From Desulforhopalus sp. (GTDB taxonomy: Bacteria > Desulfobacterota > Desulfobulbia > Desulfobulbales > Desulfocapsaceae), in NCBI GenBank assembly GCA_013139415.1, contig WTAT01000528.1:1-38769 (forward strand): DNA of 38,769 bases, in the 5' to 3' direction. Below the pieces are notes generated by a model. The model did not search any database. It was not told the DNA's origin and was given only the letters and a program-made list of their open reading frames with translations. This document shows positions 482 through 37,083 of the stretch, piece after piece. The position numbers and the translations under genes were made by a program. The first letter of the stretch is position 1; every line of letters starts with the position of its first letter.

Positions 482-847
482 TTTTCATTCACCACTCAAG
501 TCAGATGGCCTGTATAATTTGTTTTACGAATTTGTTTTACGAATGTGAACGAACTTCAAAATCTATCCGTTCGCACTTAAAAAGCAACGTTTTATGCTCA
601 CCCCTGCTCACTTCTGCTTGTTTTTCGTTGTTTTCGTCCTGCGCAATGAGTATAAACCATACTCCTTTAACCATTTATGAGCCCGTTGATTTACGGCCTT
701 TTCGCCCGATCTCCGCGTTATGTGGAAAAAATAATCCTCGAAATATTAAGTATATGTCTCCGGTTATTTTTTCCACATGCCTTGATATCGAACGAAAATT
801 CTCATAAATCAACAGACTCATTTATAATCATACTGAAGTTTCCTGAC
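482..847. other. intergenic region with dispersed element copy 1
   Basis: This gap lies between the divergent ComEA-like gene and trmL. I see no convincing gene in it. Its right part is occupied by the palindromic element at 685-813 described separately. Open frames through it are low in complexity and run into the element, so I treat them as chance frames. Confidence 0.6.
685..813 (+). repeat. dispersed palindromic element, copy 1
   Basis: Outer arms GTTGATTTA (685-693) and TAAATCAAC (805-813) are inverted repeats. An inner perfect 15-bp stem is formed by ATGTGGAAAAAATAA (720-734) and TTATTTTTTCCACAT (764-778). The 29-nt loop (735-763) matches the loop of copy 2 (9338-9366) at 23 of 29 positions, although the stem arms match at only 6 of 15. 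Sequence outside the stem, such as CGATCTC before it and TCGAAC after it, is also shared. This looks like a MITE-like element or a conserved structured RNA. Confidence 0.7.
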
Positions 848-7386: not shown

Positions 7387-7483
7387 TTGCTGTTCGCTGA
7401 GAGTCGGTTGGCGAACACTCTGCCGTTTTTTATATGTTCGCCACAGACAAGGAAATACAGTAACTTCAGAGTCCATCCCTCTA

Positions 7484-7566
7484 ACACCCCACAAGGGGGT
7501 ACTAAAAAAGAGAGACAGGCTTTCAGGAGTACTCAGTTTAGTGCCCCCTTGAGGGGTAAGGCACTA
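7484..7566. repeat. GC-rich hairpin repeats, cluster 1
   Basis: The hairpin ACACCCCACAAGGGGGT (7484-7500) is the reverse complement of the tail of the 82-bp repeat found at 20021 and 37002. A second unit, 7524-7566, contains CAGGAGTACTCAGTTTAG followed by the CCCCCTTGAGGGG hairpin and matches 13482-13525 with one difference over about 43 bases. The cluster lies between convergent genes, where bidirectional terminators would be useful. Confidence 0.75.
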
Positions 7567-7633
7567 AGTCGCAGACATCAACACAACCTTTATTCATACC
7601 TAAGTTAAAAAAAAATCTTCATCGATCGTTGTG

Positions 7634-9175: not shown

Positions 9176-9279
9176 TCTACACCTGTATCCTGTTCATTAT
9201 GTTTTATTTTCTCGCTCTTTATTATCTGGTCATTTACAGTATAATTCAAATATCGATATAGAATAGTTATATATTTTGT

Positions 9280-9425
9280 TAGTTTCCGTCCTGCGCCCAC
9301 CCTTTTGTCCGATCTCATCGCTATACGAGATTTTTTATCCTCGGAATATCAAGTAGATGGCTGTGGTATAAAATCTCGTATGCCTCAATCTCGAACAAAA
9401 TTCCTGGTTTCAGGACACAAACTAG
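9280..9425 (+). repeat. dispersed palindromic element, copy 2
   Basis: The terminal inverted repeats are TAGTTTCCGTCCTG (9280-9293) and CAGGACACAAACTAG (9411-9425). The inner stem is formed by 9323-9337 and 9367-9381 and pairs at 14 of 15 positions, including a perfect ATACGAGATTTT/AAAATCTCGTAT block. Its arms differ from copy 1 at 9 of 15 positions, yet the 29-nt loop matches copy 1 at 23 of 29. The element fills the divergent gap between pepA and the CNNM-like gene. Confidence 0.75.
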
Positions 9426-9502
9426 TTACAAATCAATTAATACTCTGATCGCTGCAAATTTAGTTGTGGAGGTTCGGGTAAATCTTCTGAGGTCACATAC
9501 AG

Positions 9503-13210: not shown

Positions 13211-13533
13211 TGTAATTTAAAGGGATTAACTCGGAGCTTCGAATAGGCACATTGACTTGTGTATCTTGAATATTTTGCTTTTTCGTTCCAAGTCCAGGGG
13301 CGTAAAAATGCAATTAATCAAGGTGACCATGTGAAAATGCACTCTACCTGCATTTACTCACCTAGGTCAATTTCAATTTCTTTTTCTAACTAAATTAACT
13401 AACCCCGGTAAACGGGAAAAAAGAGCACCCCTCAGGTAAGCGACAGACTCCGAGGGGGTATTGAACTGAATGACAGGAAATCAGGAGTACTCAGTTTAGT
13501 GCCCCCTTGAGGGGTAAGGTACTAAAAATCTGA
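13211..13533. repeat. intergenic region with GC-rich hairpin repeats, cluster 2
   Basis: No gene is seen here. The hairpin unit at 13427-13459, ACCCCTC paired with GAGGGGGT, is similar to 20135-20170 along its whole length, sharing CCCCTCAG, TAAG, GA and the GAGG arm. A second unit at 13482-13525 is almost identical to 7524-7566, with one difference. The cluster lies just downstream of the DUF2065 gene on the minus strand and upstream of mgtE. Confidence 0.7.
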
Positions 13534-17640: not shown

Positions 17641-17922
17641 TTGTATCTCCTCTAAAACGACAATTTATCAATACCGTATCCAAATCACGACAAAACTCTC
17701 AACTCGCTCGAGCCTCCATTCGGTGCAAAAGACAGTACTCATATATTCAATTTCAAAAGACAAAGTCAAGAGAGAACAGCGATAGCAAAGTGTTTCAAAA
17801 AAAATATTTGTATAGAAGTACCTGATTCAAATCAAAATGATGATTTTGTGGCATATTTTTTATTATCGGGGTATTCTGGCAACCCGAATTACTATTTCAG
17901 ATTTTTCCCGGATAATTTTCAG
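17641..17922. other. divergent intergenic region upstream of murJ
   Basis: This stretch separates the divergent EF-G-like gene and murJ and presumably holds both promoters. I see no gene in it and cannot assign individual promoter elements with confidence. Confidence 0.4.
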
Positions 17923-19515
17923 TTGACTGATCAGACAGCAAATAAAAGCACAATAGCCAAATCAGCCGCCACCGTTGGCATTGCTGTGATGTGCAGTCGA
18001 ATCCTTGGACTTGTCAGAGAACAGGTGTTCGCTGGACTTTTTGGCGCCGGATACACCAACGATTCCTTTGTTGTAGCGTTCCGCATACCTAACCTTCTAA
18101 GGGATCTTTTCGGGGAAGGTGCGCTATCTGCCGCCTTCGTCACTGTTTTTTCGGCATACGACACGAACCGCTCCCGGGAGGATACCTGGAGGTTGGCGTC
18201 CAATGTTCTAACCTTTATCCTGATACTTCTAAGTATTATCACTTTACTAGGGATCTTTTTTGCCGATTCAATTGTCTCTCTTTTGGCACCGGATTTCAGT
18301 CTGATCGCCGGTAAGAGTGTTCTCACCATAAAACTCACTCAGATAATGATGCCCTTCCTCATTTTCATCTCACTTTCTGCGGTGGTAATGGGGATTTTAA
18401 ATACCAAGGGACGATTTTTTGTCCCGGCGATAGCCTCCAGCTTTTTCAATCTCGGCTCGGTGATTGGCGGAACCAGCCTGGCTTTTACCCTGCCACATTT
18501 TGGACAACCGGCCATAGTCGGAATGGCTATCGGCACACTTATCGGAGGAATGCTGCAACTCGGAATCCAGATCCCCTCATTGCTCAAAACCGGTTTTAGA
18601 TACAGGCCGACTATCGATCTTTCAGACCCCGGCTTGCGTCGGATTCTCAAACTGATGATTCCTGCAACCGTTGGGTTATCCGCCACCCAGATCAACATTT
18701 TCATCAACACCAACTTTGCCTCATCCTGCGCCGAAGGCTCCGTTTCCTGGCTCTATTATGCGTTCAGGCTTGTACAGCTGCCCATCGGCATTTTCGGTGT
18801 TGCTCTGTCGATCGCAATGTTGCCTATATTGGCCAAGCAGGCTGCAAAAAAAAATATAGCTGAAATGAAAAAAACCATGGTGTCGTCCCTCACCATGGTT
18901 TTTGCCTTAACCCTCCCAGCCACGGCCGGACTCATTGTCCTTGCGGAGCCGATTATCCGACTGATTTTTGAGCACGGCGCCTTTACCGCAAAAGACACCC
19001 TGGCAACGGCGCAGACACTGGCCCTTTATTCGGTGGGGCTGTTTGCTTATTCCTCAAACAAAGTGCTGGTACCCGCCTTTTACGCCCTCGACAAAACCCG
19101 TTATCCGGTCATTGCCAGCTTTATGGCGATTGTTATCAACATCATTATTATCAACCTGACTATTGACCGCTTTCAGCACTTGGCAATTGCTTTTTCCACT
19201 TCGTGCACAATGTTGATCAATTTTCTTTTTCTCATGATCGTATTATACAGGAACCTGAACGGTTTTCCCCTTGCTTACCTTTGCAAAAGCCTGCTGAAGA
19301 TAACATTTGCGACCCTGGCCCTTACCTGTTTACTCTGGTATTTGCTGCCATATTTTAATGCCTGGTTGCACGGTTCCGTCATCCACCAGAGTGGTTCGTT
19401 ATTGCTGCTCATCCTGTCAGCGGCTCTCTTGTATGGAGTGATTCTCCATTTATCTAAACTTGCAGAGATGAACATTTTAACGAAAATGATACGAACAAAA
19501 TTCCTCAAGAATTAA
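17923..19515 (+). CDS. murJ: lipid II flippase MurJ (MviN)
   Basis: MurJ flips lipid II across the inner membrane for peptidoglycan synthesis. The product (530 residues from the TTG at 17923) begins with KSAATVGIAVMCSRILGLVR and has about 14 hydrophobic helices across its length, with DSFVVAFRIPNLLRDLFGEG, a signature segment containing the conserved arginines of the central cavity. An in-frame GTG at 17848 would add 25 residues; I prefer the TTG because a GGA lies about nine bases upstream and the length then fits the family better. It is followed by copy 3 of the palindromic element. Confidence 0.9.
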   Translation: MTDQTANKSTIAKSAATVGIAVMCSRILGLVREQVFAGLFGAGYTNDSFVVAFRIPNLLRDLFGEGALSAAFVTVFSAYDTNRSREDTWRLASNVLTFILILLSIITLLGIFFADSIVSLLAPDFSLIAGKSVLTIKLTQIMMPFLIFISLSAVVMGILNTKGRFFVPAIASSFFNLGSVIGGTSLAFTLPHFGQPAIVGMAIGTLIGGMLQLGIQIPSLLKTGFRYRPTIDLSDPGLRRILKLMIPATVGLSATQINIFINTNFASSCAEGSVSWLYYAFRLVQLPIGIFGVALSIAMLPILAKQAAKKNIAEMKKTMVSSLTMVFALTLPATAGLIVLAEPIIRLIFEHGAFTAKDTLATAQTLALYSVGLFAYSSNKVLVPAFYALDKTRYPVIASFMAIVINIIIINLTIDRFQHLAIAFSTSCTMLINFLFLMIVLYRNLNGFPLAYLCKSLLKITFATLALTCLLWYLLPYFNAWLHGSVIHQSGSLLLLILSAALLYGVILHLSKLAEMNILTKMIRTKFLKN

Positions 19516-19517
19516 AC

Positions 19518-19640
19518 TAGTTTCCGTCCGAAAACCAAGGATTTTGTTCGAGATCGAGGCATGCAAAAAAAATTTGAGCATAACGATGAGATTGGACAGG
19601 TAGCGTAGACTCCGAAAGAACAGTTTTCGGATGGGAACTA
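19518..19640 (-). repeat. dispersed palindromic element, copy 3 (shortened)
   Basis: This copy is in the opposite orientation. Its terminal inverted repeats TAGTTTCCGTCCGAAAAC (19518-19535) and GTTTTCGGATGGGAACTA (19623-19640) pair at 16 of 18 positions. Read on the minus strand it shares with copy 2 the left flank TCCAATCTCATCG (TCCGATCTCATCG in copy 2), the right flank CTCGAACAAAAT and part of the TAGTTTCCGTCC end. The central stem-loop is largely missing, replaced by a short AT-rich hairpin (ATGC/GCAT). It follows murJ immediately and precedes the end of the convergent phasin-like gene. Confidence 0.7.
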
Positions 19641-19666: not shown

Positions 19667-19981
19667 CTACTCAGTCTCTTTTTTTAGAGAAGAAATCTCT
19701 TCCCGTAACCGCTCAATCTCTGTTTTTAAGAGCTCGACATCCTCAACGCGGGCCAGTTTCATTTTGGCAATAGCGTTTTGCACAACGCTCTCTGTCTGAC
19801 TTTTCATCGTTTCGCGGGATTCCTCAGCACAGCTGAACATTTCTTGAACTAATTTTTCTCCCTCCTGCTCGGACATTTTCCCCTTGTCTATTAATTCTTT
19901 TGCGAGATCTTCAATTTTATCTTTAGTCAGAGACGCAACCCCGACACCCGTCAAAACAGCTTTTTTTATAAGATCTATCAT
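19667..19981 (-). CDS. phasin-like coiled-coil protein
   Basis: This 104-residue protein is nearly all helical and charged. An N-terminal segment LIKKAVLTGVGVASLTKDKI is followed by LAKELIDKGKMSEQEGEKL and a C-terminal coiled coil (about residues 78-102, VELLKTEIERLREEISSLKK). The pattern resembles poly(hydroxyalkanoate) granule-associated or phasin superfamily proteins, which coat storage granules. No phaC-like gene is in the window, so this role is inferred only from the fold. A good GGAG ribosome site precedes the ATG. Confidence 0.75.
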   Translation of the reverse strand: MIDLIKKAVLTGVGVASLTKDKIEDLAKELIDKGKMSEQEGEKLVQEMFSCAEESRETMKSQTESVVQNAIAKMKLARVEDVELLKTEIERLREEISSLKKETE

Positions 19982-20020: not shown

Positions 20021-20170
20021 AAAAACAAGAAGTCTGAAGAGTGTTTTGAAATTGGAAACTTAAAGTAACCTGCAAGGCACTTATACCCCCTTGTGGGGTG
20101 TTAGTGTCTTTGAAATTATACTCTTATCATTATCCCCCTCAGATAAGTGATGGACCCTGAGGAGGTACTC
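20021..20170. repeat. 82-bp dispersed repeat and hairpin, cluster 3
   Basis: Positions 20021-20102 match 37002-37083 with 6 differences in 82 bases, ending in the CCCCCTTGTGGGG hairpin. The following unit 20135-20170, CCCCTCAG paired with CTGAGGAGG, resembles the unit at 13428-13463. The cluster lies between the phasin-like gene and the end of the dus gene, both on the minus strand. The long conserved part before the hairpin shows that this is more than a simple terminator. Confidence 0.8.
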
Positions 20171-36948: not shown

Positions 36949-36981
36949 TGCCTTACTCCTGAAAGCCTGTCATTCAGTTCA

Positions 36982-37083
36982 ATACCCCCTTGAGGGGTGT
37001 AAAAAACAAGAAATCTGGAGAGTGTTTTGAAATTAGGGACTTAAAGTAACCTCCAAGGCACTTATACCCCCTTGTGGGGTGTT
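36982..37083. repeat. GC-rich hairpin and 82-bp dispersed repeat, cluster 4
   Basis: The hairpin ATACCCCCTTGAGGGGTGT (36982-37000) is followed by an 82-bp unit (37002-37083) that matches 20021-20102 with 6 differences and ends in the CCCCCTTGTGGGG hairpin. The cluster lies between the convergent cytochrome and ppaC genes. Confidence 0.8.

Follow-up and report, generated by a model that had tools for sequence, protein, structure and literature searches.

Results

A Head-Deleted Palindromic Element between murJ and a Phasin-like Gene

The window, the whole stretch of 38,769 nucleotides that was analysed, corresponds to the full length of contig C171, one of the 637 contigs of a draft genome totalling 4.5 Mb. 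It carries a 119-bp element without a transposase gene, here called copy 3, which is flanked by murJ and by a convergent phasin-like gene, and it holds two longer relatives of this element, copies 1 and 2 (Table 1). The outermost bases of copy 3 at 19518-19640 read TAGTTTCCGTCCGAAAAC and, on the reverse strand, TAGTTCCCATCCGAAAAC, and agree over 18 bp with two differences, just as the original prediction had it. The terminal inverted repeats are 16-18 bp long, with a TA flanking each side. Because the 6-bp target duplications of sibling copies include this TA, the element, real as it is, is better bounded at 19520-19638 with the TA outside; the element proper reads GTTTCC...GGAAAC. The predicted reversal of copy 3 is borne out by a 48-bp inverted match to copy 2 (9380-9427 / 19515-19562, 85%). 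The end 12-mer, with up to two mismatches, has 8 matches against 2.5 expected, a number reached by 0 of 100 shuffles, which speaks against a chance resemblance. The flanks of copy 3, AAACTA and TAATCC, form no recognisable target duplication, as expected of an old or damaged copy, so that its own insertion is not provable base by base.

Table 1. Features of copy 3, its neighbours and the related copies in the window
Feature	Position	Strand	Remark
Copy 1 left target duplication TTTA	674..677	.	exact
Copy 1, 143-bp element, T6 ends TGAGTCTGTTGATTTA	678..820	-	same core (699-801)
Copy 1 right target duplication TTTA	821..824	.	exact
Copy 2 left target duplication TTGTTA	9276..9281	.	5/6 match to right side
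Copy 2, 141-bp full-length element, T1 ends	9282..9422	-	intact core
Copy 2 right target duplication TAGTTA	9423..9428	.	
murJ (lipid II flippase), upstream neighbour	17848..19515	+	stop codon 4 bp from copy 3
Copy 3, 119-bp head-deleted MITE, T1 (ISNCY-type) ends	19520..19638	+	between murJ and convergent phasin-like gene
Copy 3 left terminal inverted repeat GTTTCCGTCCGAAAAC	19520..19535	+	
Copy 3 deletion scar AAAAAAAATTT	19565..19575	+	both AAAATTTT blocks fused to one (alignment)
19-nt insert module AGGTAGCGTAGACTCCGAA in copy 3	19598..19616	+	alignment with siblings
Copy 3 right terminal inverted repeat GTTCCCATCCGAAAAC	19623..19638	-	2 differences vs left
Phasin-like gene, downstream, convergent	19667..19981	-	Pfam match below curated cut-off

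The copy 1 of the original prediction is presumably the one listed here, with the same core inside different ends. The window therefore holds two terminal-repeat shells, T6 (copy 1, with a 4-bp duplication) and T1 (copies 2 and 3, with a 6-bp duplication at copy 2). The open reading frame listed for a SpoU methylase (677-1318) begins within copy 1; since its Pfam domain starts at residue 64, translation probably begins downstream of that copy. A second dispersed palindromic repeat family (TTAGTGCCTTAC..., with ACCCCCTTGAGGGGT modules) occupies 7481-7567, 13453-13525, 20021-20104 and 36954-37083 of the window, and modules akin to it occur within or beside copies of the present family.

Loss of the Head between Repeated Blocks

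Alignment shows that copy 3 passes from GGCATGC directly to AAAAAAAATTTGAGCATAACG, where its siblings have GCGAAAAATTTTACCGCAGG...GAGGATAAAATTTTGAGCATAACG, and that it has no counterpart of the head hairpin found in copy 2 and the full-length copies, in line with the predicted loss of the inner stem-loop. The missing piece is the exact segment that slippage between the AAAATTTT blocks would excise, and the same head deletion is common to copy 3 and the copy on contig C228. Since AAAATTTT is self-complementary, the stem arms are direct repeats as well as inverted repeats. The core had been described as replaced; with deletion endpoints at the AAAATTTT repeats and no new filler in the gap, it was deleted instead. 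Judging from these endpoints, slippage between the AAAATTTT blocks was probably the mutational mechanism. The same logic would explain a 39-bp remnant, through deletion between CCGAAA repeats, and 20-bp remnants reading TAGTTTCCATCCTGAAACTA, through deletion between GAAAC repeats; the 20-bp remnant at L109 is flanked by an exact 6-bp duplication, TATTTA. Palindromic MITEs may thus shed their heads simply, with self-complementary A/T blocks serving as direct repeats. Solo 20-bp palindromes TAGTTTCCATCCTGAAACTA that resemble end-stage deletion remnants lie at L102:269, L109:1165, L111:700 and L104:399.

The 19-nt module AGGTAGCGTAGACTCCGAA of copy 3 is found in most type-A copies and is missing from copy 2 and from the copy on contig C630. 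In some elements (window 19598-19616; L028, L029, L063, L097) a 19-nt module AGGTAAGCGTAGACTCCGA and its complement sit at separate loop positions of one and the same element, so that the two inserts could pair together.

Dispersed Copies and Target Duplications in the Same Genome

The same genome holds dozens of dispersed copies of the family. A 141-bp query gave many strong matches, the best other copy lying on C228 (E=5e-44, 91% over 123 bp), and full-length copies measure 186 bp (C41) and 141 bp (C630). At up to three mismatches the end pattern occurs at 66 + 78 places, compared with 15 + 31 for a reversed control; T6 ends occur at 76 places and T3 ends at 52, each with a control count of 0. 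Exact 6-bp duplications flank the copies L018/C630 (TAAGTC), L098/C416 (TAAATA), L096/C199 (TACTTA), L095/C170 (TAGATA) and L021/C140. One copy (L113/C236) has a 7-bp duplication, and several more two-ended copies, including copy 2, have a 6-bp duplication with one mismatch. The 6-bp direct repeat of these two-ended copies takes in the outer TA. A duplication of TA only, of the IS630/Correia kind, was assumed at first and was ruled out by C630 and other copies, whose 6-bp duplication has no TA at the left end. The genome-wide search that the original prediction had proposed thus returned both dispersed ends and target duplications, the latter in sibling copies.

An Autonomous Partner in a Genus Mate

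In a genus mate (G008) the end sequence TAGTTTCCATCCTGAAAC is present twice in inverted orientation, 1687 bp apart. It delimits an insertion sequence (IS) of 1683 bp, flanked by the 6-bp duplication TAGCTA, whose 18-bp ends are identical to those of the family. This IS encodes a 454-aa transposase with the Pfam domains DDE_Tnp_1 and DUF772, which scores 479 bits against the NCBIfam model NF033593 (ISNCY family; cut-off 325), a group that we take to be ISDol1-like. Three further ISs of the same kind, from the same taxonomic family, have related ends and the 6-bp duplications TAACTA, TAGTTA and TAAATA. The proposed search for a full transposon with the same ends was therefore successful in a relative and not in the genome itself, in whose draft assembly neither protein nor family-model searches gave a match to the G008 transposase; a multicopy IS could be missing from an assembly in 637 contigs. 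The element shares with the NF033593 ISNCY ISs its terminal repeats (18 bp identical in G008) and the 6-bp duplication of TA type, and differs from them in having no transposase gene and nothing in common inside the ends. Indeed, no core-like sequence was seen in the end sequences of the G008 IS that were examined, the ends alone being common. The element is thus a type II MITE in the terminology of PMC10969869.

For shell T4, a candidate partner is a decayed IS (L367:801-2292) with an IS1182/IS5-like DUF772 transposase, T4-like ends GAG[TC]CTCTTGCAAAATG and the 4-bp duplication TGTT; it is a single decayed copy, linked to the T4 MITEs by its ends and duplication length alone. Searches for autonomous elements with shells T3, T5 and T6 found none. 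Kilobase-spaced pairs of T3 ends (L258, L333, L338) have ordinary genes between them and most likely represent separate MITEs.

The murJ-Phasin Gap in Genus Mates

The gene order murJ - phasin - dus can be made out in the majority of genus mates, and a core profile run over their murJ-phasin loci matched only the copy described here. In the 12 mates where both genes were found, the gap was taken as the distance that separates the aligned portions of the two proteins. It is 36-72 bp in 9 of the 12, and 124 and 205 bp in two others, both without the copy 3 element; in G005 it is 172 bp and holds a different palindrome of the ACCCCCTTGAGGG kind, akin to the second repeat family. The gap of the closest relative differs in sequence, and the exact ancestral target is unreadable there. 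As copy 3 is absent from the gap of all 12 readable genus mates, it is a lineage-specific insertion, contrary to the identical location in all relatives that the original prediction had named as evidence for a fixed regulatory element. Family members lie in 14 convergent, 20 divergent and 50 tandem gaps, compared with 68, 72 and 211 background gaps, with no preference for convergent ones.

One Core in Six Terminal-Repeat Shells

A profile search of the DNA collected in the analysis gave 244 distinct core copies. Around this core of ~105 nt there are six or more kinds of terminal-repeat shell, and nearly all of the resulting elements measure 141-143 bp. Matched ends are carried by 174 of the 244 copies (T3 43, T2 42, T6 28, T4 23, T1 23, T5 15), and few copies have two different end types. 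Shell consensus sequences are 141-143 bp long, with ends 6-75% identical and cores 76-97%. Scored shell by shell against permuted flanks, a 6-bp duplication accompanies T1 (at most one mismatch, 8/18 vs 1.9 expected) and T2 (21/37 vs 6.2), and a 4-bp duplication accompanies T3 (exact, 29/40 vs 2.9), T4 (11/19 vs 0.8) and T6 (22/28 vs 3.0); for T5 nothing exceeded the permuted flanks past a constant TA. A MITE of the IS630/Tc1-mariner (Correia-like) kind is consequently possible solely for shell T5, given the 6-bp duplications of T1/T2 and the 4-bp duplications of T3/T4/T6.

On a core tree, itself poorly resolved, the shell label changes 21 times. This is below the 58 changes of shuffled labels and above the minimum of 5, and the shells were accordingly inherited yet repeatedly changed. 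The constant length fits both swapping of shells and gradual divergence of the ends in place. Mixed-end copies (L010, L014, L025 and others) combine a T1 end with a T3 end around a normal core, and it is possible that they are recombination intermediates of shell change.

Folding of the Core

The consensus stem was scored on 57 non-redundant cores: 94.9% of its cells are paired, a share that falls to 33-48% with the partner slid, and both sides have changed in 21 of the 29 stem pairs. On the core strand the three window copies all fold better than shuffled sequences (z -4.7, -7.1 and -12.0), and in 55 of the 57 cores this strand gives a better fold than the complementary one, largely through two conserved G-U pairs. 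At the other pairs, selection at the RNA level was not significant (G-U vs A-C 39:23, p=0.056). Homogenisation of the arms by template switching could likewise yield matched changes; it would tend to erase conserved internal mismatches, yet these persist. Together, the covariation, the strand-biased fold and the retained mismatches make a role for the folded core likely.

Distribution among Sulfate Reducers

When GTDB contigs were scanned for exact matches to GGYATATNNTTGATATTCCGAGGAT, at least 120 stretches were returned. Among the matches listed, informative titles name Desulfocapsa, Desulfobulbus, Desulfogranum, Desulfofustis, Desulfosarcina, Desulfatitalea and Syntrophaceae (sulfate reducers and relatives), and a few read merely Deltaproteobacteria, Pseudomonadota or bacterium. 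The core was present in 19 of 198 sampled genomes of the phylum (E<=1e-6), across well over ten families, at 75-91% identity. Cultured carriers include Desulfogranum mediterraneum DSM 13871 and Desulfobulbus rhabdoformis DSM 8777. At the search sensitivity applied, neither IMG/VR nor the plasmid and phage sets contained a match to the core. Against Rfam 15 the window gave no match at gathering, and none of 7 loci rose above any family's gathering score. No earlier description appeared in the open literature searched, a scope outside which subscription papers and ISfinder fall, and the family is apparently a large, undescribed one across sulfate-reducing bacteria.

Discussion

Copy 3 is a genuine MITE, now damaged, and the kind of transposon it belongs to is known. 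The MITE reading of the original prediction is supported by the dispersed copies, the inverted ends, the 6-bp duplications of siblings, the matching IS and the empty locus in relatives; the reason given for it, ends kept around a replaced core, does not hold, as family-wide it is the core that is kept and the ends that are exchanged. In full, copy 3 is very probably an internally deleted and probably immobile MITE with ISNCY-type (DDE) ends, which lost its head by slippage and whose family was mobilised in trans. This reading draws on the ends, the copy number, the sibling target duplications, the IS of a relative, the empty gap in relatives and the deletion endpoints, all of them observed directly. 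The parent would have been a near-palindrome of ~141-186 bp with the conserved core, on whose ~16-bp ends a cut-and-paste transposase would act in trans, duplicating 6 bp of target. With the matching transposase gone from the available assembly, the copies would now be stranded. The core of copy 3 would then have lost its head through slippage between the AAAATTTT blocks, in an order of events reconstructed from the sequences, and the same slippage at other short repeats may have given rise to the remnants of 39 bp and 20 bp found in other parts of the genome.

Three alternatives to this MITE reading can be weighed against the same evidence. The short form could be the older, minimal element, from which long forms arose by gaining the hairpin through insertion; small hairpin modules do enter core loops of other copies, but the head is the best-conserved part of the family across the phylum and the short forms show the exact junction expected from deletion between AAAATTTT repeats, which makes an ancestral short form very unlikely. 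Copy 3 begins 4 bp past the murJ stop, lies between convergent genes and folds strongly on one strand (z -4.7), which might suggest that it serves murJ as a fixed terminator or regulatory element and is no mobile insertion. With the same gap empty in the genus mates checked while gene order is kept, and without a convergent-gap preference in the family, we regard this as highly improbable. The palindromic anatomy, and a Y1 transposase gene near one core copy in G019, would fit a derivative of REP/RAYT or IS200/IS605 type, mobilised as a single strand by an HUH transposase. Such an origin is extremely unlikely in view of the clean 6-bp and 4-bp target duplications, the matched inverted ends and the DDE transposases encoded by ISs with identical ends; furthermore, the Y1 genes of the genome that contains the window showed no element match in the loci fetched. 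The IS200/IS605 origin, considered on account of the G019 gene, was ruled out by these element-free Y1 loci together with the target duplications. The G019 gene itself (L076:847-1380) is complete and encodes a Y1 transposase of the IS200 type; its position ~80 bp from a T3-shell copy is probably a coincidence.

A broader reading extends the preferred one and is no true competitor to it. In a MITE superfamily the structured core would be the selected unit, changing its transposase partner by exchanging or mutating end shells of ~16-20 bp; its fold, as RNA or single-stranded DNA, would aid persistence, and copy 3 would be a decayed member. The 244 core copies in six shells, most with matched ends, the shell-specific duplication lengths and the greater divergence of ends than of cores at constant length all point in this direction, as do the covariation, the 21 shell changes, the phylum-wide occurrence and the better folding of one strand. 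On the other hand, template switching during replication can homogenise palindrome arms without selection, the G-U vs A-C asymmetry is not significant, the core tree is poorly resolved, the fold is known here from sequence alone, and the constant length equally fits gradual end divergence. We therefore consider this reading quite possible though short of probable. A bolder version seems rather doubtful: a phylum-wide hyperparasite whose ~105-nt core, selected on one strand as RNA or single-stranded DNA, outlives its transposases and repeatedly finds new partners by swapping shells between IS families that cut 6-bp or 4-bp targets, with mixed-end copies as intermediates and hairpin-templated arm copying restoring matching ends.

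MITEs are normally named and understood through their ends, as offspring of one transposon. In the present family the inside is constant and it is the ends that turn over, throughout a phylum and with at least two lengths of target duplication. What is new in the family is this constancy of the core while transposase ends turn over, the MITE kind being already known. The bacterial MITEs Correia, Chunjie and QMITE (PMC10969869) share with the element its shortness, lack of coding capacity, inverted ends, target duplications and strong folding, and are likewise mostly intergenic, with internally shortened copies and partial remnants. They differ from the present family, in which a single core recurs throughout a phylum within six or more kinds of ends, whose duplication lengths differ; the papers searched held no case of a phylum-wide core shared by several end types. 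REP/BIME elements with RAYT (PMC3733652) are likewise palindromic, intergenic and multicopy, but their partner is an HUH transposase, whereas the present family combines inverted ends and target duplications with a DDE transposase as partner. With this family it can be tested directly how a parasite without coding capacity comes to change its transposase, and whether the folded core performs a function in its own right. In other genomes, the core loops have taken up various small G+C-rich hairpins at different positions, like nested mini-elements (L250, L252, L254, L258, L261, L263, L314, L329).
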